Origin: Magnetococcales bacterium
GTDB taxonomy: Bacteria > Pseudomonadota > Magnetococcia > Magnetococcales > UBA8363
Length of the DNA stretch: 64,000 nucleotides
NCBI GenBank assembly: GCA_002753515.1
Contig: PEAK01000005.1
Location: 1-64,000, forward strand
Direction of reading: 5' to 3'
Positions within the stretch are counted from its first letter, which is position 1. Every line of letters begins with the position of its first letter. Made by a program: the position numbers and the translations under genes. Below, piece by piece: positions 53,524-63,186 of the stretch. The notes beneath the pieces were generated by a model, which made no database searches, had not been told where the DNA came from, and saw only the letters and a program-made list of their open reading frames with translations.

Positions 53524-56500
53524 ATGCAACCCGAATCAGTGCCCGTTCCGGTTGTCTTGGTGGATATGGAAGGTTTCAGTCCACTGAAACCAGACGAACA
53601 GAGCGCTGTGGTTGCCCGTCTGCAAGAGGCCCTCACCCAAAGCATCAAGCTGCTGATTGGATTTACCAACCCCAAGGCGATCATTCGCCATGGTACCGGG
53701 GATGGTTATTATCTTTTTCTGGAACATTATCCAACCCCTGTGGCCATGCGTTTTGCCCTGAATCTGGAAAATATCCTTCGAGACGATAATGCCAACCATC
53801 CGAACTATCCGTTGCGGTTACGGGTGGGTCTCACTCTGGGCCGTGTTGGGCTTCAGGGGGATCAATATTTGGGAGAGGTTTTGACTGAGGCGGCACGGTT
53901 GATTGACCACGAATGGATCAAGGGGCTGCTGAAGGAGCGCATAGAGAATCCTATCGTCCTGCTGGCATCCCAATTTTTTTGGGATAACTGGCAAAACCAT
54001 GAACTGCGCACCGATCCAGCGCTCGCTTATCCCGAGGAGCGTCCCTGGATTTGCGCCGAATTGACCGTCAAGCATGGTGAAGTCCTGTTGGCCCATGTGC
54101 AGACGGATGCAGGAGTGTTTCAATCTATCCAGAAAAAGGCACCGGTGGATCAAGGGAGTACCTCGGTCCCTGATCTGACCCCGTGGTTGAAGGAACTGCT
54201 AGACTACACCCGCAATATTCAGATTATTGGCATTGGCTCGGGTGAAGGGAGCGGACAAAAGGCTTATCTTTATCCCATAGAACAACTCTACACCCCATTG
54301 AAAAGTCGCAATCCCCTTGGTGCGGTTGATTCCATGGATGGGGAGTTGCGTACTGGTATTAGGATTCCTGGGGATGGTCCCGGGAGCGATATGGCTGGGG
54401 TATCCTTGGCCGATCTGCTGCCGAAACACAAACGACTCTTCATCGAAGGCGATCCCGGTTCAGGAAAAACCACTTTTTTGCATCTGGCCGCCGCCATGCT
54501 TGCCAAGGATTTGCTGGATGAAAGAGGGGTTGCAAGCGAAAGTTGGCGCAAACGCCATCTGGGTATGGACGATACAAAAGAAGCCCCCAAGCCTCTTTTC
54601 CTCAAGTTGTCGGAGCTGGCCGTGCTGCTGGCCAAGGAGAGTACACTGACGAAAAAGGACGACCGCTTCCGGCTATTGGAGCTTCTCCAAGGTACGCGAG
54701 GGGCCGATCAGGATCCTGCCTGGAGTCATCATTGGCAATCGTTGCTTGAAGCGGGGAACGTTCTTCTGTTGTTGGATGGCTTGGACGAGGTGGCGGATGA
54801 AACCATCAGGGAACGGGTGTTTGCCATTTTTTCGGATGCTGATGAACATTGGAGAAACAGCCAGATTGTGGTTACAAGCCGTCCTTTTGGCGCGGAGAAA
54901 CTCACGAAGATGGGATTTCATCGTGCGGTGATCGAACCCTTCGGTGCGGGAGAGACGCGGGAATTCATCAACTGTTGGTCGGCGGCCTTGTTTGGCCATG
55001 CTATTGGCAAAAGGCCTACGGGTGTTGCAGGAGAAAAAGCCGATGCTATGGAGAAAGCCATCCTCAACCGTCCCGCCATCCGCAAGCTTGCGGCCAATCC
55101 GGTGATGCTGACCTGTCTTTGTGTCGTGCATTGGAACAGGGGGCAATTACCTGAGGGACGGTCGCGTGTGTATGACGTGGTGATCGACTGGCTGTTGGGT
55201 AGTCGGGAGGTTATTCGCAACGCGCATGGCTATCATAAGCGCTTTGCCATGGAGGCTTTTTCTGCCATTGCTTTTGCCATGATGGGGGGGAAGCAAGGGA
55301 ACAAACAGACGATTCTTGATCTGAAAAAAGCGGTAGATATCGTCGATCCCTTTGTTTCACGCTATTTTTCTGAGATAAATCCGAATCAACGGGAGGATTT
55401 TACGCGCAAGTGGCTGCGTTTTGAAGGCGTTTACAGCAACATTTTGGTGGAGAAAAACACCAACGGGTTCAGCTTTTGGCATTTGACCTTCCAGGAATAT
55501 CTGGCGGCTAAAGAACTAGCCAGCATGCGTGATGACAAAAACAAGGGTTGGTGGCCTGTAGTGGCCAGTCGCTTGGAAAATGTTCAGTGGCGGGAGACAG
55601 TGGATCTCTTCCCTGGAGTGTTGTTGGATGGAAACCTCAGGTTTCGTGTCGATGACCTGTTGACCTTTGTTATGGAACGCTACAGCGGAAGTGGCTTGGC
55701 CAAGGTTGCTTGCAAGGCTGGCATCATGAACCGCATTTTAGAGCCGACCAAGGTTTACGGCTATAGGCCCGATGCTGTGACCCAAGAGCAATACCAGCAG
55801 GTGCTCAAGCAGGCTATGGCGATTTTCACCCTGAAGGGGGCCGCCCAGGTGCCCATCAAGGATCGCCTGCTTGTGGCGGAGGCCCTTGGTCAGGGAGGTG
55901 ACCCGCGTCTTGCTGAGGATCGATGGCGGGAAAACCTGATCAAGGTACCCGGTACAGATATCGCCCTGGGAAAATATTTGGTGACGGTGCAGGAATACCA
56001 GCGCTTTGTCGAGGATGGTGGTTATGACAACCCCGACCATTGGTGGGAGGAGCGTGCCTGGACCTTCCGCCAAGCCGAGGGATGGCAAGAGCCAAGCGAT
56101 TGGGCCAACCAATTGGATCACCCCAACTGGCCGGTGACGGGCGTTTCCTGGTATGAAGCGTCAGCCTATTGCCGTTGGCTCCAGACACAGAGAAATGTAG
56201 AGTTTTTTTTGCCTGAGGAAGAAGACTGGAAAACAGCGGCCACTCCTGCCCAAGGTAAATACTCCTGGGGCAACGCAAAGCCTACTCCAGAGTTGGCCAA
56301 TTACGACAAGAGCAAAATAGGCCATGCTACTCCGGTGGGGCTTTATCCCGATGGCAATGGTCGGTATGGTCATTGCGATTTGGCGGGTAATGTCTGGGAA
56401 TGGAGCGCCGCTTCATGGATGGACTCCGATTTTTCTGACGAGAATATTCAAAAGTACGGACCACCGCAGGTGGTCAGGGGCGGGTCCTGGGACTACCCGG

Positions 56501-56604
56501 TCGAGGACTTCCGGGCCGCCATGCGCTTCAGGAACCATGCCGTCTCCCGCAGCTGCTTCCTGGGCTTTCGCGTCGCTGCCCCCGCCAGCACGGTTGATCC
56601 TTGA
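53524..56604 (+). CDS. DGR target 1: nucleotide cyclase-like-NACHT-FGE-sulfatase protein
   Basis: The 1026-residue protein is an NLR-like STAND ATPase. The N-terminal domain (about 5-190) is class III nucleotide-cyclase-like and keeps both metal-binding Asp (VDMEGFS, D14; GTGDGYY, D60). The NACHT domain has Walker A GDPGSGKT (309-316) and Walker B LLLLDGLDEV (about 414-423). After a helical region, an FGE-sulfatase/C-type-lectin-like domain (about 800-1020) contains GNVWEWS and RGGSWDY. The last ~39 codons are a DGR variable repeat (56476-56592). I infer a sensor whose ligand surface is diversified and whose binding triggers oligomerisation and perhaps nucleotide signalling. AGGA lies upstream of the ATG. 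Confidence 0.85.
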   Translation: MQPESVPVPVVLVDMEGFSPLKPDEQSAVVARLQEALTQSIKLLIGFTNPKAIIRHGTGDGYYLFLEHYPTPVAMRFALNLENILRDDNANHPNYPLRLRVGLTLGRVGLQGDQYLGEVLTEAARLIDHEWIKGLLKERIENPIVLLASQFFWDNWQNHELRTDPALAYPEERPWICAELTVKHGEVLLAHVQTDAGVFQSIQKKAPVDQGSTSVPDLTPWLKELLDYTRNIQIIGIGSGEGSGQKAYLYPIEQLYTPLKSRNPLGAVDSMDGELRTGIRIPGDGPGSDMAGVSLADLLPKHKRLFIEGDPGSGKTTFLHLAAAMLAKDLLDERGVASESWRKRHLGMDDTKEAPKPLFLKLSELAVLLAKESTLTKKDDRFRLLELLQGTRGADQDPAWSHHWQSLLEAGNVLLLLDGLDEVADETIRERVFAIFSDADEHWRNSQIVVTSRPFGAEKLTKMGFHRAVIEPFGAGETREFINCWSAALFGHAIGKRPTGVAGEKADAMEKAILNRPAIRKLAANPVMLTCLCVVHWNRGQLPEGRSRVYDVVIDWLLGSREVIRNAHGYHKRFAMEAFSAIAFAMMGGKQGNKQTILDLKKAVDIVDPFVSRYFSEINPNQREDFTRKWLRFEGVYSNILVEKNTNGFSFWHLTFQEYLAAKELASMRDDKNKGWWPVVASRLENVQWRETVDLFPGVLLDGNLRFRVDDLLTFVMERYSGSGLAKVACKAGIMNRILEPTKVYGYRPDAVTQEQYQQVLKQAMAIFTLKGAAQVPIKDRLLVAEALGQGGDPRLAEDRWRENLIKVPGTDIALGKYLVTVQEYQRFVEDGGYDNPDHWWEERAWTFRQAEGWQEPSDWANQLDHPNWPVTGVSWYEASAYCRWLQTQRNVEFFLPEEEDWKTAATPAQGKYSWGNAKPTPELANYDKSKIGHATPVGLYPDGNGRYGHCDLAGNVWEWSAASWMDSDFSDENIQKYGPPQVVRGGSWDYPVEDFRAAMRFRNHAVSRSCFLGFRVAAPASTVDP
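56476..56592 (+). other. DGR variable repeat VR1
   Basis: The 117-bp segment aligns without gaps to the template repeat at 58108-58224. Twenty-one positions differ; 12 of these are at the template's 24 adenines. Nine differences are at non-adenine sites, seven of them clustered in five consecutive codons (template P-A-A-H-L-R against V-E-D-F in the target). It encodes the end of the FGE-type domain, positions where DGR lectin-like targets show their binding residues. Confidence 0.9.
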
Positions 56605-56630
56605 TTGGTTTGGTTTTTGATCTTTGTCGG

Positions 56631-56655
56631 GTCCAGGGGGCGTAGCCCCCTGGAC
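56631..56655 (+). promoter_or_regulatory. Hairpin downstream of VR1 (DGR target-recognition type)
   Basis: An 11-bp perfect stem GTCCAGGGGGC/GCCCCCTGGAC with a GTA loop lies 38 bp after VR1. The same hairpin follows VR2 at 59710-59734, embedded in a near-identical ~70-bp block. In characterised DGRs a hairpin/cruciform just downstream of the VR is needed for efficient retrohoming, so I assign that role by analogy. It may also act as a terminator for the target gene. Confidence 0.75.
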
Positions 56656-56664
56656 TTGCAAAAT

Positions 56665-56827
56665 GACACGATTTTGTCATTCTTGGGCTGTTTTTGTCAT
56701 TTTACTTGACAAAACAGGCAAATTTCCTTAGATTTTGTCAGTTATGTGTCACTTTGGCGATTGATTTGTCACTTTTAGAGTGACAAAATGACAAATCAAG
56801 AAGGAAATTGTCACTTTGTATCTGTCA
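56665..56827. promoter_or_regulatory. Array of TTTGTCA/TGACAAA motifs upstream of the HTH gene
   Basis: About nine copies of TTGTCA(T/C) or its complement TGACAA occur in both orientations over 160 bp, up to and across the start of the HTH gene. A similar array flanks the other side of the cassette (59346-59480). The likely reader is the HTH protein encoded here, as autorepressor or organiser. No other replication gene is present, so an origin is unlikely. Confidence 0.65.
56706..56734 (+). promoter_or_regulatory. Candidate promoter for the HTH-avd-TR-RT cassette
   Basis: A perfect -35 TTGACA is followed after 17 bp by TAGATT, matching four of six -10 positions. TTTGTCA motifs overlap the -10, so binding there would block polymerase. 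The distance to the HTH start is about 80 bp. Confidence 0.4.
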
Positions 56828-57481
56828 TTGACCGAAGCGGCCATTGTTTTGGGAAAGACGCCGCGTCAGGTGCGTTATCTCATCAAGAACGGGATGTTAA
56901 AGGCGAAGAAGGAAAAGGGGTGTTGGGTTATCGACAACGGAGATTTACCCCTTTCCACAGCCCAACGCCAAGCCATGGCCCGACGTGCCGAGACCGCGCA
57001 AAATGCCATGGCCGAAGCCACAGCACCTTTGCAAAAAGCGGCCTCCCTGGAATCTGCACCCGCAGAAGCGAAAACCACAGACGGCGAAAAGGAGAAAAAA
57101 CCCTACTCTGTCACCGATCTGAGGGCCTTCACCCTGGGGGCGGAAATTTATCGCGAGATGGACAATGATCTTGGGAGGGAAAATCCGGCCAGGCTTTGCC
57201 TTTTTGATGCCCTGAAAAAGCTTTGCCGGGGGTGTCATGCCTTTCAGCCACCACAAAAGGAGGCTCGCTTTACCGAGGCACGAGAGGCGGCAGCGGATGC
57301 AGTTGCCATTTTGCTTTTGGAAGGCGAGGCCCATGATCCCCAACGAATGCTCCTGGCCAATCGCATCGAAACCGAACTGATTCCCAAGCTGGCGGCTTTG
57401 GCTGCCGGTCAGGAAAAACGGGCGCGCAAGAAGCAGCATGGCAGTCTTAGTGGCTTTTTTCCCGGCACCTTTGGGGAGTAA
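56816..57481 (+). CDS. HTH DNA-binding protein of the DGR cassette
   Basis: The 221-residue protein begins with an excisionase/MerR-like helix-turn-helix (LSLTEAAIVLGKTPRQVRYLI, then GCWVIDNGDLP), followed by an Ala/Glu-rich linker (about 60-100) and a C-terminal helical domain of about 120 residues (FTLGAEIYREMD, ARLCLFDALKKLCRG, AREAAADAVAILLLEGE). The TTG start is chosen because it places the HTH at the N-terminus and AAGAAGGA lies ~10 bases upstream; a nearby ATG at 56788 is in another frame. Its TAA overlaps the avd ATG (TAATG). It probably binds the TTTGTCA array. The C-terminal part may contact the DGR machinery, but this is inference. Confidence 0.7.
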   Translation: MYLSLTEAAIVLGKTPRQVRYLIKNGMLKAKKEKGCWVIDNGDLPLSTAQRQAMARRAETAQNAMAEATAPLQKAASLESAPAEAKTTDGEKEKKPYSVTDLRAFTLGAEIYREMDNDLGRENPARLCLFDALKKLCRGCHAFQPPQKEARFTEAREAAADAVAILLLEGEAHDPQRMLLANRIETELIPKLAALAAGQEKRARKKQHGSLSGFFPGTFGE

Positions 57482-57970
57482 TGCGACCCGCCCCCCTGTA
57501 TGGCGACACCATGCGTCTCGCCGCCCTGATTCTCCGCGTGACCGAAGCGCCAACGTTCAGGCAATCGCCATTGGGGTGGCGCTTGCAGGAGGGGGTGTTG
57601 CGTCTTGTGGATCATGTGGTACTGGCGTTGGCCGGACAGGAGCGGCAACAGCGCATCGCTGCTGCCGATGCCGAACTGCAAACTTTGCGGGCTCACTGTT
57701 TTCTTGCCCTGCAAATGGCCTTGATGGAGGAAGATCTTTTTCTAAACCGCACCCAGCACGGGAAACGTAGTTTCCCGGCGTCATCCCCGCGAAAGCGGGG
57801 ATCCAGAAAGTCAGGGAAGGTAGAAAAGTCCTCTGGATCCCCGCTTTTGCGGGGATGACAATAACTACACATTCCAAGATAGCTGCGGTTTAACAGTGGC
57901 CGAAGCGGCGCAAAAAGTGGGTCGGCAGTTGGGTGGATGGCGTAAAAAAGGGCAGGCCAAATCTGCGTGA
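57481..57970 (+). pseudogene. avd: avd (DGR accessory protein), split by MITE B
   Basis: Avd is a small helical-bundle protein that forms a ring, binds the reverse transcriptase and TR RNA, and is required for mutagenic retrohoming in studied DGRs. The first 88 codons (to LMEEDLFL) are intact and start one base into the HTH stop. A 146-bp MITE then interrupts; the frame runs on to a stop at 57858 with 37 foreign residues. If the element and one TA are removed, codon 88 joins TVAEAAQKVGRQLGGWRKK and ends at 57970, giving 113 residues with the LGGW C-terminus usual for Avd. As it stands, the last helix is lost, so function is doubtful. Confidence 0.8.
57745..57890. mobile_element. MITE family B, copy 1 (146 bp), inside avd
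   Basis: The element has short inverted ends AACCGCA / TGCGGTT, TA on both sides, and an inner pair of CATCCCCGCGAAAGCGGGGATCCAG-like palindromes in inverted orientation (positions 57778-57860). A second copy lies in the opposite orientation at 59485-59631. It has no transposase. Joining its flanks restores the avd frame, which fixes the borders. Confidence 0.88.
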
Positions 57971-58107
57971 TGTCGCATCGGTTACCCTCTGGATGTGCCC
58001 CGGCGACGCAGAAAACTTGCCACCCAGGGGAAGGGAAGCTATCCTGAATCGGGGACGCTTCGAATGAAGAATTTCGCTATCGCCATGGACATCATCATGA
58101 ACTCCCA

Positions 58108-58224
58108 AGGGGCGGGTCCTGGAACAACCCGGCTGCGCACCTTCGCGCCGCCATGCGCAACAGGAACCATGCCGACAACCGCAACGACAACCTGGGCTTT
58201 CGCGTCGCCGCCCCCGCCAACACG
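58108..58224 (+). other. DGR template repeat (TR)
   Basis: A 117-bp non-coding copy of the targets' last 39 codons, between avd and the reverse transcriptase as usual. Read in the VR frame it is rich in AAC codons (eight), the classic design that lets adenine mutagenesis reach up to 15 amino acids per codon without creating stops. It has 24 adenines; 12 are changed in VR1 and 10 in VR2. A stop (TAG) follows directly after the homology. An unrelated open frame across it is not a gene. Confidence 0.9.
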
Positions 58225-58351
58225 TAGGACATCCCCGCCGTGCAGAAGCATCCCCGGTGCCAGCCATGTGCGCCGAAACATTCCATGCCCGCCCGTTCCC
58301 GTAAGCGCCAAGCGCTGAGCGTCCGGGCGGGCTATCATCTCATGACAGATC
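58225..58351 (+). ncRNA. Structured spacer between TR and reverse transcriptase (DGR RNA)
   Basis: The 127-bp spacer can fold: GCCCGCCCG (58287-58295) pairs with CGGGCGGGC (58324-58332), and a nested AGCGC/GCGCT hairpin (58304-58316) fills the loop. In the Bordetella phage DGR the spacer 3' of TR is part of the template RNA and is needed for cDNA priming and RT binding. I assign this role by position and structure; transcript ends are unknown. The stem ends 19 bp before the RT start and may also mask its RBS. Confidence 0.5.
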
Positions 58352-59344
58352 ATGCGTCGCATCGGCAATCTTTTTGATGCGATCCTCTCTCCGGGCAATC
58401 TGTGGCGGGCTTGGCAGGAGTTCGCCAAAGGAAAACGCCAGCGCACCACGGTGGCTGATTTTGAATGGCGAGCCCCACAGGAGGTTTTGTGTCTGCATCA
58501 GCAATTGATGGCGGAAAACTACCGTCCCCAGGGCTACCGCCTCAAGATGATCCACGAACCCAAACGCCGCCTGGTGGCCGCTGCCCCGATACGCGACCGC
58601 ATCGTCCATCATGCCATCTATCGGATTCTGTCACCGCTTTTGGACCCAGGGTTGATTCGCGAAACCTGGGCTTGTTTGCCGGGGCGCGGCAGTCATCGGG
58701 CGCAGATTGCCTGCATGGGGGCCATGCGGGATTATCCCTGGCGGCTAGCCCTGGACATACGGCACTACTTCCCCAGTATCGACCACGCCATTCTCCTGGA
58801 AAACGTCATGGCACGGTGTATCAAGGATCGTCGCCTGCTCGAACTGCTCAGGAAAATCTGTCAAAGTGGTGATGGACTCTATCGGCAGCCGGGAATTGGG
58901 GAATTTTTGGGATTTCCGTCTGATTTTCCTCCGGCAGGCTGTGGTTTGCCCATTGGCAATCTGACCAGTCAGTGGCAGGCCAATCATTATCTTTCCGGCC
59001 TGGATCATCATGTGAAGCGCATCGTGCAGATTCCTGCTTATCATCGCTACATGGATGACATGCTCTTTTTTGCCCACTCTAAAAGCCAGTTGCAGGAGAC
59101 CCGTGTTTTGGTGGCGGAATGGCTCTGGGAGCAGCGCCGTCTGAAACTGAAGCATCCCAACGTTGCTGTTCATTCCACCAAGCAGCCTATGACTTGGTTG
59201 GGCAAACGCATTTCTACTTCTGGCATCAACCCAAGCCGTCGGCTGATCCGTAAAATGCAGTGTCGCATGACCGAACTGATCCGCCAGGGTGATGAAGAGA
59301 CCATTCGCCATGCCGTTGCCTCCTACCGTGGGGTACTGCTGTAG
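58352..59344 (+). CDS. DGR reverse transcriptase
   Basis: The 330-residue enzyme copies TR RNA into adenine-mutagenised cDNA. The palm is intact: LALDIRHYFPSIDH (motif A-like Asp), GCGLPIGNLTSQWQAN with the DGR-typical IGNxTSQ in place of the QGxxxSP of retroviral and group II enzymes (about residue 202), and the catalytic YMDDM (about 233). The length is normal for a DGR RT, with no maturase or endonuclease domain. It is preceded by TR and the spacer and followed by the right-hand TTTGTCA array. All catalytic residues are present even though the avd gene is broken. Confidence 0.93.
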   Translation: MRRIGNLFDAILSPGNLWRAWQEFAKGKRQRTTVADFEWRAPQEVLCLHQQLMAENYRPQGYRLKMIHEPKRRLVAAAPIRDRIVHHAIYRILSPLLDPGLIRETWACLPGRGSHRAQIACMGAMRDYPWRLALDIRHYFPSIDHAILLENVMARCIKDRRLLELLRKICQSGDGLYRQPGIGEFLGFPSDFPPAGCGLPIGNLTSQWQANHYLSGLDHHVKRIVQIPAYHRYMDDMLFFAHSKSQLQETRVLVAEWLWEQRRLKLKHPNVAVHSTKQPMTWLGKRISTSGINPSRRLIRKMQCRMTELIRQGDEETIRHAVASYRGVLL

Positions 59345-59345
59345 A

Positions 59346-59480
59346 TAAAGAATGACAAACTGTTTTTTAGAAGTGACACTTTGTCAGTTTGTCATCCTCA
59401 GAGTGACACATGGGATGACAAATTGTCATTCGTAGGGATTATTTTGTCAGTTTGTCACCTTTTGAATGACATTTTGTCAG
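59346..59480. promoter_or_regulatory. Array of TGACA/TTTGTCA motifs downstream of the RT
   Basis: About eleven copies of TGACA/TGTCA, mostly as TTTGTCA or TGACAAA, occur in both orientations in 135 bp directly after the RT. With the array at 56665-56827 they bracket the core cassette. More isolated copies occur at 59660-59705 next to the VR2 hairpin. Candidate operators for the cassette's HTH protein. Confidence 0.6.
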
Positions 59481-59484
59481 TTTA

Positions 59485-59631
59485 AACCGCAGCTATCTTG
59501 GAATATGCAGTTATTGTCATCCCCGCGAAAGCGGGGATCCAGAAAGTTAGAGAAAGGTGTGTAGACTCCTTGGATCCCCGCTTTCGCGGGGATGACGCTA
59601 GAAAACTACGTGTCCCGTGTTGGTTGCGGTT
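59485..59631. mobile_element. MITE family B, copy 2 (147 bp)
   Basis: This copy is inverted relative to the one in avd and has the same AACCGCA/TGCGGTT ends, TA on both sides and the same two REP-like palindromes. It is inserted between the TGACA array and the VR2 hairpin block. The two copies differ at more than a dozen positions between and beside the palindromes, so they are not a fresh duplication of one another. Confidence 0.85.
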
Positions 59632-59709
59632 TAAACGGACAAAATCAGGCGGAAAACGTCAAATTTGTCACTTTTACGGACAAAAAACGGCTTTTTTCGT
59701 CATTTTGAA

Positions 59710-59734
59710 GTCCAGGGGGCTACGCCCCCTGGAC
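59710..59734 (-). promoter_or_regulatory. Hairpin downstream of VR2 (DGR target-recognition type)
   Basis: The same 11-bp stem and GTA-type loop as at 56631-56655, in the orientation of the minus-strand target gene, 38 bp after VR2. The surrounding ~70 bp differ from the VR1 block at only a few positions. The matching spacing and orientation support a role in retrohoming. Confidence 0.75.
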
Positions 59735-59760
59735 CCGACAAAGATCAAAAGCCAACCCAA

Positions 59761-62700
59761 TCAAGGATCAACCGTGCTGGCGGGAGCGGCGACGCGAAAG
59801 CTCAGGGTGTCGAAGCGGTTGACTGCATGGCTCCTGTAGCGCAAGGCAGCGCGAAGAAACGCAGCCGGGTTGTCCCAGGACCCGCCCCTGACAGGGCGAA
59901 CATTTCCATCGTCTGTGCTGACAACGGGATCTTGAGCCGGTGAACTCCCACTACGTTTTCGGTAAGCGTTTCTATCCCAATCATCCTGGCACCACTCCCA
60001 GACGTTACCTGCCAGATCGAGATGACCGAAGGGTCCACGACCAGCGGGATAGTGTCCCACCAATGATGGTTTGCCGTTGTTCCTGCCCATGTCAAAACAG
60101 GCCAACTTTTTTGTAGGTTCTTTATCGCCCCAAGGGTAACGGAGACTCTCCTTACCCCGTGCGGCATACTCCCTTTGCGCCTCGCTGGGTAGAAAAATTA
60201 TCTGACCCGACTCCCGGGTGAGCCAGGCACAAAAAGTCATGGCATCATGCCAATCTACCCCTACTACCGGTTGTCGGGGGTCGGCAAATCTTTGCTCGCG
60301 CCAATAGCCAGGTTCCTGGTGTTTTGCCGCTTTGAGAAAAAGAGCATACTGTTGGTTGGTCACCGGCATTTCCGCCAAATAGAAGGGCGAGAGGATGACC
60401 TGATGTTCCGGTTTCTCGTCGTCGTCTCCATTGTTGTCTCCCATGGTAAAGACTCCTCCAGGTACTGGCAACAAACGCAGACCCGGCATGGGTTCCAGAA
60501 TGAGTAAGTCGATACTTTTCCGAATAATCCCTGTTGGGGTACCCACAGATTTATCACGGGGGGGCGATTTGATTTTCAGTGAAGGGCTTTGTTTGATATC
60601 TCTTTCCCCGTTCAAGTGTTGCACAAGTTGGGTAACAACTTTTTGCAGATCGTTTGAGCGCCCATCCACCTGGATGAGGTTTTCCCATTTGACGAGCGAT
60701 GCTGGATCTACCGGACTATCTGGCAACAACAGGGTGAACAACCGACAATGGTTACCTAAATACATCAATCCATCCTCGGTATCCGCCTCCGCAAGCGCAT
60801 GTCCATTCCCAGCCAGAAAAAGGATAAAACGGCATTTTTGCCGAATCTCATCCAAATGTTGCAGCCAGTCATGAACAGCCCAGTCCCGTTCATTTTTCGG
60901 CCAGGGATGCCATCCCGCCCGGGTTGACAATAGAGAAGCCAGTTGATCGGCGACCGTTTCATCCACAGGGGCATGGATCAAGAGCAGGTCGAATTTCTTT
61001 TTCGTACCCTCCGTATCCTCCCCCAGAAGACCCTTTGCCAGTCCAGAGACGTTGGGGTTGGCATGCCCTTTAAGAGTTGCCGCCGCCTGTAGCACATCGG
61101 GGTCAGTCACCCCGTTGAGCAAGCGCAATAGTGCTGTTAGTTCTCCAACCTTAGTTTTGTTATCCTTGAGTGAGGCAACAAACACGGAATAATCAGGTTG
61201 CACCGCCTCGGTCAGCATGGTCCGCATCAGTTCGTTGCGGCTTTCCTCCAGGATACCCGGTAACAACCGCTTCATCATCGGCGCAAACAGCCTGTATCCC
61301 GGGATGGCGACCAGCAACAACAACACTTCCCGCCACCAGTTCTCATCCGCCTGCCCAGCCAGAATATTCAACAACCCATCACCTTCCGACATGACCACAT
61401 GCCGTGCCGCCAAATATTCCTGCAAACCCAGGTGCATGAAGCCGTATTGTTTCTGTGCGTATTCGATGAAAATACCGGTATCCCGGTTGAGCCACTCCAA
61501 AATGGCAAGTCCTGTCGGGGCATCCTTCTTTCCTGCAAGTTGTTGTTCGGCAAAATTGGCAAACTCCAACTGTCTGACATTATCCCGCCGTTTTTCTTGG
61601 TGAAGTTTCCAGGCCAAAGGTTGCAGGATATCCATGGCTGCTTGCAAATCCAATAACGGCTCCACGTCTGCTTGCTCGCGACGCCACTTGTTCAGCATGA
61701 TCTCCAGGCATTTTTGGTAAAATGCCGCCCGGTTTCTCGGAATCTCTCCCCCCCTGAGGACGACCAGGCACAGCAAGGTGAGCAGCAAGGGATTGCCCAT
61801 CAATAGCTTGATGCGTTGGTCAGCAAAGGCTGTTTTATCCATGGTACCGAGCAATCGCAGGGAACGGTTCTTTGCCTCTGTTGCTTGCGCATCGCCCATA
61901 TGTTTGCAGGCTTCGTCAAACCAGACGTGAACGAATTCCTCTACCCGTTGTCCGTCCAGGGGTTTGACATCCAAAGGAAAAAAATTCTCTAATCGTACGT
62001 TACCTTCATACCCCGCATAACGGCAGGAGACGATAGCGTAGATGTTTCTTTCCTGAAAGCCAACCAACTGGCCAGCGATACGTTCTGCTACCCGAGCCCG
62101 CAACTTGGAATCGGCAATTTCATCCAAACCATCAAACAGCAACAACAGATTGCCCGATTCCCAAAGATTACGTTTGAACTCCCCTGGGAAACGCCCGCCG
62201 GATAATTCCCGCAATTCCTTGTTGATGTAATGGATTAATGGCTGATGCAAATATTCCTCGGTAAAATGACGCAACCTTAGAAAAATCGGTTTCATGCCGT
62301 GGGGTAGAGCCAATTGTTCTGATCCTTGCTTGAGGCAAAGATGGAGGATTTTTTTCAGGGAGGTCGTTTTGCCCGCCCCCGGTTCACCAAACAACACCAC
62401 GCATTGCCTGAGCTTTCCATCTTTGTCCTTGAAGATATCCTTCAATTCCACATCGCCAAAGCTTTGTTCCCTGGCTTTATCGCCCAGACTCTTTGTGAGT
62501 CTACTTTCAAGATCGACGCCGAAGGCCCGTTGCGAGATACGTAGAGGGATGAAGACCCGCTCTAAATCCAGTGAAATATCACCCCCCTCCACCCCCAACA
62601 GCGACACCTGGCTAAATTTGGCCAATGCCCAATCTGAATAAGTGCTTTTCTTTGTGTCCTCAATAATCTTTTCTTGTTTGGGTTGTGGCTTATTGGCTAG

Positions 62701-63186
62701 TTCGCGGATGCGATGATTTAAATTCTTGAAAATTAGCTTTTGTTCAACTTCTGACATCTGTTCCAACGTTCGTTGCGGTGTGGCGAACCCCTGAAGGGAG
62801 GTCAGTTTTCTGGTTTCATCCGTATTGGAAAGGGTAAAAGGGAAGCGGGTCTCTTCGGCATCTGAAGGGCTAACAAAGACGAGAAGAATTGTTAGTGTCT
62901 TCTTTTCCCAAGCATCAACAAGTGGCGGCAACTCCTTTTCCCAAATAAAATCGGAGGCCAGGAAGGCTTGCGATATAAAAAGAACAGCGACATTGGCCTC
63001 ACGGATAGCTTGGTTGATTTCTACTTCCCATTCGTGTCCCGTTTTGATGCCGCCGTCATGCCAAACAGTGGCCAACCCTTCCCGTTCCAATGTCTTGGCA
63101 AAAGGAAGGAAGCCTTTCAATATCTTGGCATCGGCATGGCTGTAACTTATGAAAACTTTTGCGTTTGGCATGTCCGGGGTATCCAT
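59761..63186 (-). CDS. DGR target 2: TIR-NACHT-FGE-sulfatase protein
   Basis: The 1141-residue protein is a second NLR-like receptor. A TIR domain (about 8-130) begins KVFISYSHAD and keeps the acidic residue of the SDFIWEKEL helix (E85), the position of the catalytic Glu in NADase TIRs. NACHT follows with Walker A GEPGAGKT (about 268-275) and Walker B LLLFDGLDEI (about 345-355). A further alpha/beta domain (about 720-860, FDLLLIHAPVDE) may be a second TIR-like fold. The FGE-sulfatase domain (about 900-1141) ends in VR2. I infer ligand-triggered NAD depletion or signalling. The gene starts 28 bp after glyS on the same strand; Met6 is an alternative start. Confidence 0.87.
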   Translation of the reverse strand: MDTPDMPNAKVFISYSHADAKILKGFLPFAKTLEREGLATVWHDGGIKTGHEWEVEINQAIREANVAVLFISQAFLASDFIWEKELPPLVDAWEKKTLTILLVFVSPSDAEETRFPFTLSNTDETRKLTSLQGFATPQRTLEQMSEVEQKLIFKNLNHRIRELANKPQPKQEKIIEDTKKSTYSDWALAKFSQVSLLGVEGGDISLDLERVFIPLRISQRAFGVDLESRLTKSLGDKAREQSFGDVELKDIFKDKDGKLRQCVVLFGEPGAGKTTSLKKILHLCLKQGSEQLALPHGMKPIFLRLRHFTEEYLHQPLIHYINKELRELSGGRFPGEFKRNLWESGNLLLLFDGLDEIADSKLRARVAERIAGQLVGFQERNIYAIVSCRYAGYEGNVRLENFFPLDVKPLDGQRVEEFVHVWFDEACKHMGDAQATEAKNRSLRLLGTMDKTAFADQRIKLLMGNPLLLTLLCLVVLRGGEIPRNRAAFYQKCLEIMLNKWRREQADVEPLLDLQAAMDILQPLAWKLHQEKRRDNVRQLEFANFAEQQLAGKKDAPTGLAILEWLNRDTGIFIEYAQKQYGFMHLGLQEYLAARHVVMSEGDGLLNILAGQADENWWREVLLLLVAIPGYRLFAPMMKRLLPGILEESRNELMRTMLTEAVQPDYSVFVASLKDNKTKVGELTALLRLLNGVTDPDVLQAAATLKGHANPNVSGLAKGLLGEDTEGTKKKFDLLLIHAPVDETVADQLASLLSTRAGWHPWPKNERDWAVHDWLQHLDEIRQKCRFILFLAGNGHALAEADTEDGLMYLGNHCRLFTLLLPDSPVDPASLVKWENLIQVDGRSNDLQKVVTQLVQHLNGERDIKQSPSLKIKSPPRDKSVGTPTGIIRKSIDLLILEPMPGLRLLPVPGGVFTMGDNNGDDDEKPEHQVILSPFYLAEMPVTNQQYALFLKAAKHQEPGYWREQRFADPRQPVVGVDWHDAMTFCAWLTRESGQIIFLPSEAQREYAARGKESLRYPWGDKEPTKKLACFDMGRNNGKPSLVGHYPAGRGPFGHLDLAGNVWEWCQDDWDRNAYRKRSGSSPAQDPVVSTDDGNVRPVRGGSWDNPAAFLRAALRYRSHAVNRFDTLSFRVAAPASTVDP
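59773..59889 (-). other. DGR variable repeat VR2
   Basis: The 117-bp 3' segment of the TIR-NACHT gene aligns without gaps to TR. Sixteen positions differ, 10 of them at template adenines. The others are mostly third-codon-position changes plus one codon (CAC against TTT) changed at all three positions. The altered codons map to the same AAC/GAC positions as in VR1, with different residues. Confidence 0.9.

Follow-up and report, generated by a model that had tools for sequence, protein, structure and literature searches.

A MITE inserted into the avd gene of a DGR in a Magnetococcales-like bacterium

The window (the whole 64,000-nucleotide stretch of DNA that was analysed) carries the DGR of a Magnetococcales-like bacterium, and a MITE is inserted into the avd gene of this DGR. 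The element is present in many copies in the genome, close relatives have the same cassette with an uninterrupted avd, no other avd was detectable in the genome, and both VRs adjacent to the cassette are stale. We consider it likely that the MITE arrived recently in the one avd found, when the DGR was already idle yet remained under selection, and that the silence of the DGR thereby became genetic. The locus comprises the following features, in window coordinates.

56476 to 56592, + strand: VR1, at the 3' end of a NACHT/FGE target gene (53524-56604), with 9/90 non-A mismatches to the TR
56816 to 57481, + strand: HTH protein gene, its stop overlapping the avd start by one base, kept in four relatives
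57481 to 57744, + strand: 5' portion of avd with its native codons 1-88, from the ORF reading and the profile of relatives' Avds
57745 to 57890, + strand: IS630-type MITE, 146 bp, from the TA on both sides, the many copies and the RNA fold
57745 to 57858, + strand: 37 foreign codons and a stop contributed by the MITE, forming the end of the shortened ORF and predicted to be disordered
57893 to 57970, + strand: 3' portion of avd (25 codons plus stop), no longer in frame with the 5' portion, with a 29.6-bit profile match
58102 to 58226, + strand: template repeat (TR), from the VR/TR comparison
58227 to 58351, + strand: TR-RT spacer, conserved with four relatives
58352 to 59344, + strand: DGR reverse transcriptase (RT), 330 aa, its end coinciding with the relatives' RT ends
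59483 to 59633, - strand: second MITE copy, more diverged and inverted, downstream of the RT, from sequence comparison
59773 to 59889, - strand: VR2, at the 3' end of a TIR-NACHT/FGE target gene (59761-63186), with 6/90 non-A mismatches to the TR

The present avd ORF (57481-57858) encodes 125 residues, of which 88 codons are native and the following 37 are foreign, being read from a palindromic repeat. This 146 bp palindromic element lies inside codon 88 and has TA on either side (57743-57744 and 57891-57892). Excision on paper of the element together with one TA (148 bp) gave flanks that encode 113 residues with a stop at codon 114, the joined 3' part reading TVAEAAQKVGRQLGGWRKKGQAKSA. An earlier note, made from the letters of this DNA, had described a TA-flanked MITE, the restoration of the frame at codon 88 upon its removal and a current frame ending in 37 foreign residues; the first was confirmed to the base, the paper excision gave the second and ORF translation the third. 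The restored 3' sequence that it quoted is indeed the in-frame continuation, but the true tail is six residues longer.

A profile built from the Avds of four relatives recovered both halves of the gene in the genome, the 5' half at 155 bits over profile positions 1-90 and the 3' half at 29.6 bits over positions 87-112. Since one profile matches both halves and the DNA between them is a multicopy repeat, the two pieces are not a chance pairing. When aligned to the four relatives, the insertion forms a block without counterpart, with the gap set a few codons early by the aligner. Misassembly across the repeat would not have given flanks that form one gene in the correct order. As start codons for the 3' piece, the frame offers only CTG, GTG, GTG and TTG, and we argue for no product from it.

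MITEs derived from IS630/Tc1-mariner elements duplicate a TA target, carry short inverted ends, encode nothing and occur in many copies. The element in avd has all four of these properties. We counted at least 41 copies in the 4.3-Mb genome, each of 133-150 aligned bases, a lower bound with 40 of 254 candidates scored. The avd copy is identical to one on contig C74 over 150/150 positions (100%) and 99% identical to one on C98. Most of the 30 copies that were fetched start with TAAACC and end with GGTTTA, and as RNA the element folds at -83.7 kcal/mol (z -10.2). One 21-base end, TAAACCGCAGCTATCTTGGAA, is common to the MITE and to DNA adjoining the C-terminal end of a DDE_3 transposase gene at the edge of contig C84 in the same genome. 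Unlike the known family, the parent element is seen here only as this contig-edge fragment, the gene being a C-terminal piece cut off by the edge of the contig; the shared end points to a transposase with the same ends as the probable source of mobility. Across the genus, 6 of 8 genomes (this one counted) have MITE matches at E 0.001, with many in G001 and G007 and one weak match in G005, the closest by RT. A promoter or terminator carried by the MITE was rejected, as no site resembling either fell within it.

RT matches were found in 22 of the 41 genomes searched, this one included. G005, G006 and G007 of the same genus and G026 of the same order share this cassette (RT identity 78-85%), and in all four its order is VR gene, HTH, avd, TR, RT, VR gene. 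In each of these relatives avd is uninterrupted and 113-115 residues long, with no MITE match at the locus. The earlier note had named an Avd naturally ending near codon 88 as evidence against its reading; none of the four close relatives (0/4) has one. An avd of this kind occurs in 4 of 8 genomes of the genus and is split only in the window genome, while the Avds of three more distant DGRs have 113-117 residues. A search of viral contigs for the empty-junction pattern gave no match. The cassette in G026 (L058, contig C115; 80% RT identity) belongs to a different family of the order, and its occurrence there suggests lateral transfer.

Apart from avd, the cassette is whole. The RT matches RVT_1 at E 5.6e-11 and the TR adjoins it, as in other DGRs; it is the only DGR RT in the genome. 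A truncated RT was ruled out, as SYRG(V/M)LL and a stop end the RT in all five close loci. The suggestion that RT and TR are still intact despite the break in avd was thus upheld, the RT running to the same end as in relatives and both the TR and the TR-RT spacer being whole. The HTH-avd-TR-RT block sits between two convergent target genes and between long inverted repeats that contain the VRs (56473-56667 and 59699-59892; 195 bp, 85% in the window). Relative to the targets, the block has the reverse orientation in the loci L057 and L058, so that this core may flip. TGACAAA/TTTGTCA motifs recur on both sides of the cassette (56665-56800 and 59350-59480), in stretches that match the relatives' flanks. 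The locus resembles the DGR of Bordetella phage BPP-1 (avd-TR-brt) in its gene order avd-TR-RT, in the four-helix Avd fold predicted for a relative and in the VR-TR differences at A only among relatives. It differs from the phage system in lying on a bacterial contig with two convergent TIR/NACHT-FGE targets, in the HTH gene that precedes avd and in the interruption of avd itself.

The whole Avd of a relative was predicted to form helices at residues 5-20, 30-50, 55-78 and 84-112 (pLDDT 92.9). This model matched BPP-1 Avd (4dwl) with a TM score of 0.81-0.89, and DGR ribonucleoprotein chains were matched too. The fold is also similar to the S23-family entry 2rld and to Xcc0516, and the assignment as Avd was therefore decided by gene position: the BPP-1-like four-helix bundle of the relative's model is encoded directly ahead of TR and RT. 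Family membership judged from sequence alone is weak, the truncated ORF scoring 15.8 bits against Pfam bAvd (PF22296), below the cut-off of 40. Codon 88 falls five residues into helix 4 of the predicted bundle. In the predicted truncated protein helix 4 is gone, helix 3 is prolonged to residue 94 and the chain beyond is disordered, with pLDDT under 50 for residues 96-125. In the reconstituted BPP-1 DGR, inactivation of bRT, Avd or TR brought repair to ~1e-9, lowest without avd, according to PMC12875486. From the predicted loss of helix 4 and this effect in BPP-1, we infer a loss of Avd function in the window DGR.

We then compared each VR with its own TR and counted the differing non-adenine sites as a clock. 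In the window these number 9/90 for VR1 and 6/90 for VR2 (together 15/180), and change remains most frequent at adenines (12/22 and 10/22). The corresponding counts per VR in relatives are 0/88 and 0/88 (L056), 1/91 and 1/91 (L057), 0/90 and 0/90 (L058), 0/90 and 0/74 (L059), 2/93 (L060), 2/91 (L061) and 1/93 (L062); the second VR of L059 has a 2-nt gap in the alignment and was counted on its 91 aligned columns only. Across these seven uninterrupted DGRs, 11 VRs differ at 7/979 non-adenine sites, that is, nearly only at TR adenines, against 15/180 in the window (Fisher p 3e-8). Left out of the count were a third, distal VR of L059, a VR-like stretch on C97 of the window genome and a weak one on C7. 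When a dense cluster of changes in VR1 is counted as one event, staleness falls to 8/165. Exchange of the TR from another lineage was rejected as the cause, both window VRs fitting their own TR better than the TRs of four relatives. The non-adenine drift of both VRs from the TR thus indicates that some time has passed since the present TR was last copied into either. The distal VR of L059 has 14/90 non-adenine differences although its avd is whole, so an uninterrupted avd does not keep every single VR from going stale. On C97 (L071; 13094-13190), a paralogue of the first target gene has its VR-like end, with several non-adenine changes, far from the cassette. The association of VR staleness with the insertion comes from one genome, the one that carries the insertion.

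The earlier note had suggested that the insertion may have frozen the DGR. Both adjacent VRs being stale, the freezing itself is supported; the MITE as its cause is not, given the identity with the C74 copy and the absence of relaxed selection on avd, HTH and RT. For the RT we counted 46 synonymous and 28 nonsynonymous changes on the window branch and 47 and 28 on that of G005, and for avd 14 and 6 compared with 10 and 6; neither the avd halves nor HTH nor RT have an excess of amino-acid change on the window branch. Had avd been neutral since the VRs went stale, ~21 nonsynonymous changes would be expected where 6 were seen (P 1e-4). Without the VR1 cluster, a conservative clock, 12 would be expected (P 0.04; 0.14 once ambiguous sites are counted), and the case for avd having outlived the staleness weakens if that cluster was one event. 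Since the MITE is identical to the C74 copy and avd has not decayed, the staleness probably predates the insertion. We favour a recent insertion into an already idle DGR, and infer the order as staleness first and insertion second. An old insertion that itself silenced the DGR, with VRs drifting afterwards and the C74 and C98 copies as its recent daughters, would also account for the stale VRs, and the identity of two copies dates the younger one only, so that the older, donor copy could be the one in avd; the selection counts and the test against neutral avd speak against this account, and we regard it as unlikely.

On the favoured reading, a MITE of the IS630/Tc1-mariner type would recently have inserted at the TA in codon 88 of avd, the only one found in the genome, after mobilisation in trans by a transposase whose ends it shares. 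The Avd product would lose the fourth helix of its bundle and gain a disordered tail, and the RT without its partner would leave mutagenic retrohoming off, with HTH, TR, spacer and RT still intact. The neighbouring VRs would by then have long gone un-rewritten, the insertion most likely meeting an idle DGR under selection and then making its silence genetic. It is hard to credit that the truncated Avd, with 88 native and 37 foreign residues, still serves the RT: its frame is open and the start and HTH overlap are intact, but Avd ends at 113-117 residues in 4/4 close and 3/3 distant relatives, helix 4 is predicted lost and the tail disordered, and the VRs are stale. Supply of Avd in trans from elsewhere in the genome is very improbable as well. 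The check for another avd that the earlier note had proposed found no second one with the four-sequence profile, nothing else scoring better than E 0.2 in an assembly that is 97% complete rather than 100%, and the single DGR RT also argues against this source. What could favour it is a C-terminal Avd-like relic on C129 (L033, 1498-1560), which matches over only ~21 residues and derives from an Avd of the L060-type DGR; no second RT was found in the genome to go with it.

Damage to DGR components by transposons and MITE-like repeats has been published before. In the multicellular bacterium Thiohalocapsa PB-PSB1, as described in PMC10907252, MITE-like arrays and transposons took the place of RT and TR at DGR loci or disrupted them. 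The targets of these DGRs are putative antigen sensors; degenerate loci have intact ones as neighbours, further DGRs of that genome are intact, and intact and broken variants coexist. The window shares with these loci the disruption of DGR parts by MITE-like elements. It differs from the losses of RT and TR in that account, as one MITE here splits an accessory gene of the only DGR found and leaves RT and TR whole. Among the titles listed for DGRs together with MITEs, with pseudogenes and inactivation, or with insertion sequences and accessory parts, none was on a MITE in avd, and no paper in the literature searched joins DGR with Magnetococc terms. The coexistence of intact and transposon-interrupted DGR components in single aggregates, also reported in PMC10907252, lends some weight to a segregating insertion, in which intact and interrupted avd alleles occur together and some cells have an active DGR. 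Part of the population may lack the insertion; the staleness of both adjacent VRs in the window consensus speaks against such segregation, which we hold to be rather unlikely. A more speculative proposal, which we think quite improbable, is that the MITE acts as a switch on bacterial immune-type hypermutation. Avd alone would be lost to lock useful sensor variants, RT and TR would stay under selection, the intact allele of sister cells could restore diversification, and the stale but conserved state before insertion would be a first, regulated locking step.

Under the reading of a recent insertion into an idle DGR, the window locus offers a knock-out of avd that arose naturally, in a DGR that has kept RT and TR whole and has TIR/NACHT sensor-like proteins as targets. 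Close relatives with an uninterrupted avd can serve as its controls, and the non-adenine VR-versus-TR count provides a simple molecular clock for the last firing of a DGR; the two together make the case more useful. Here that clock tells the loss of activity apart from the loss of the gene.
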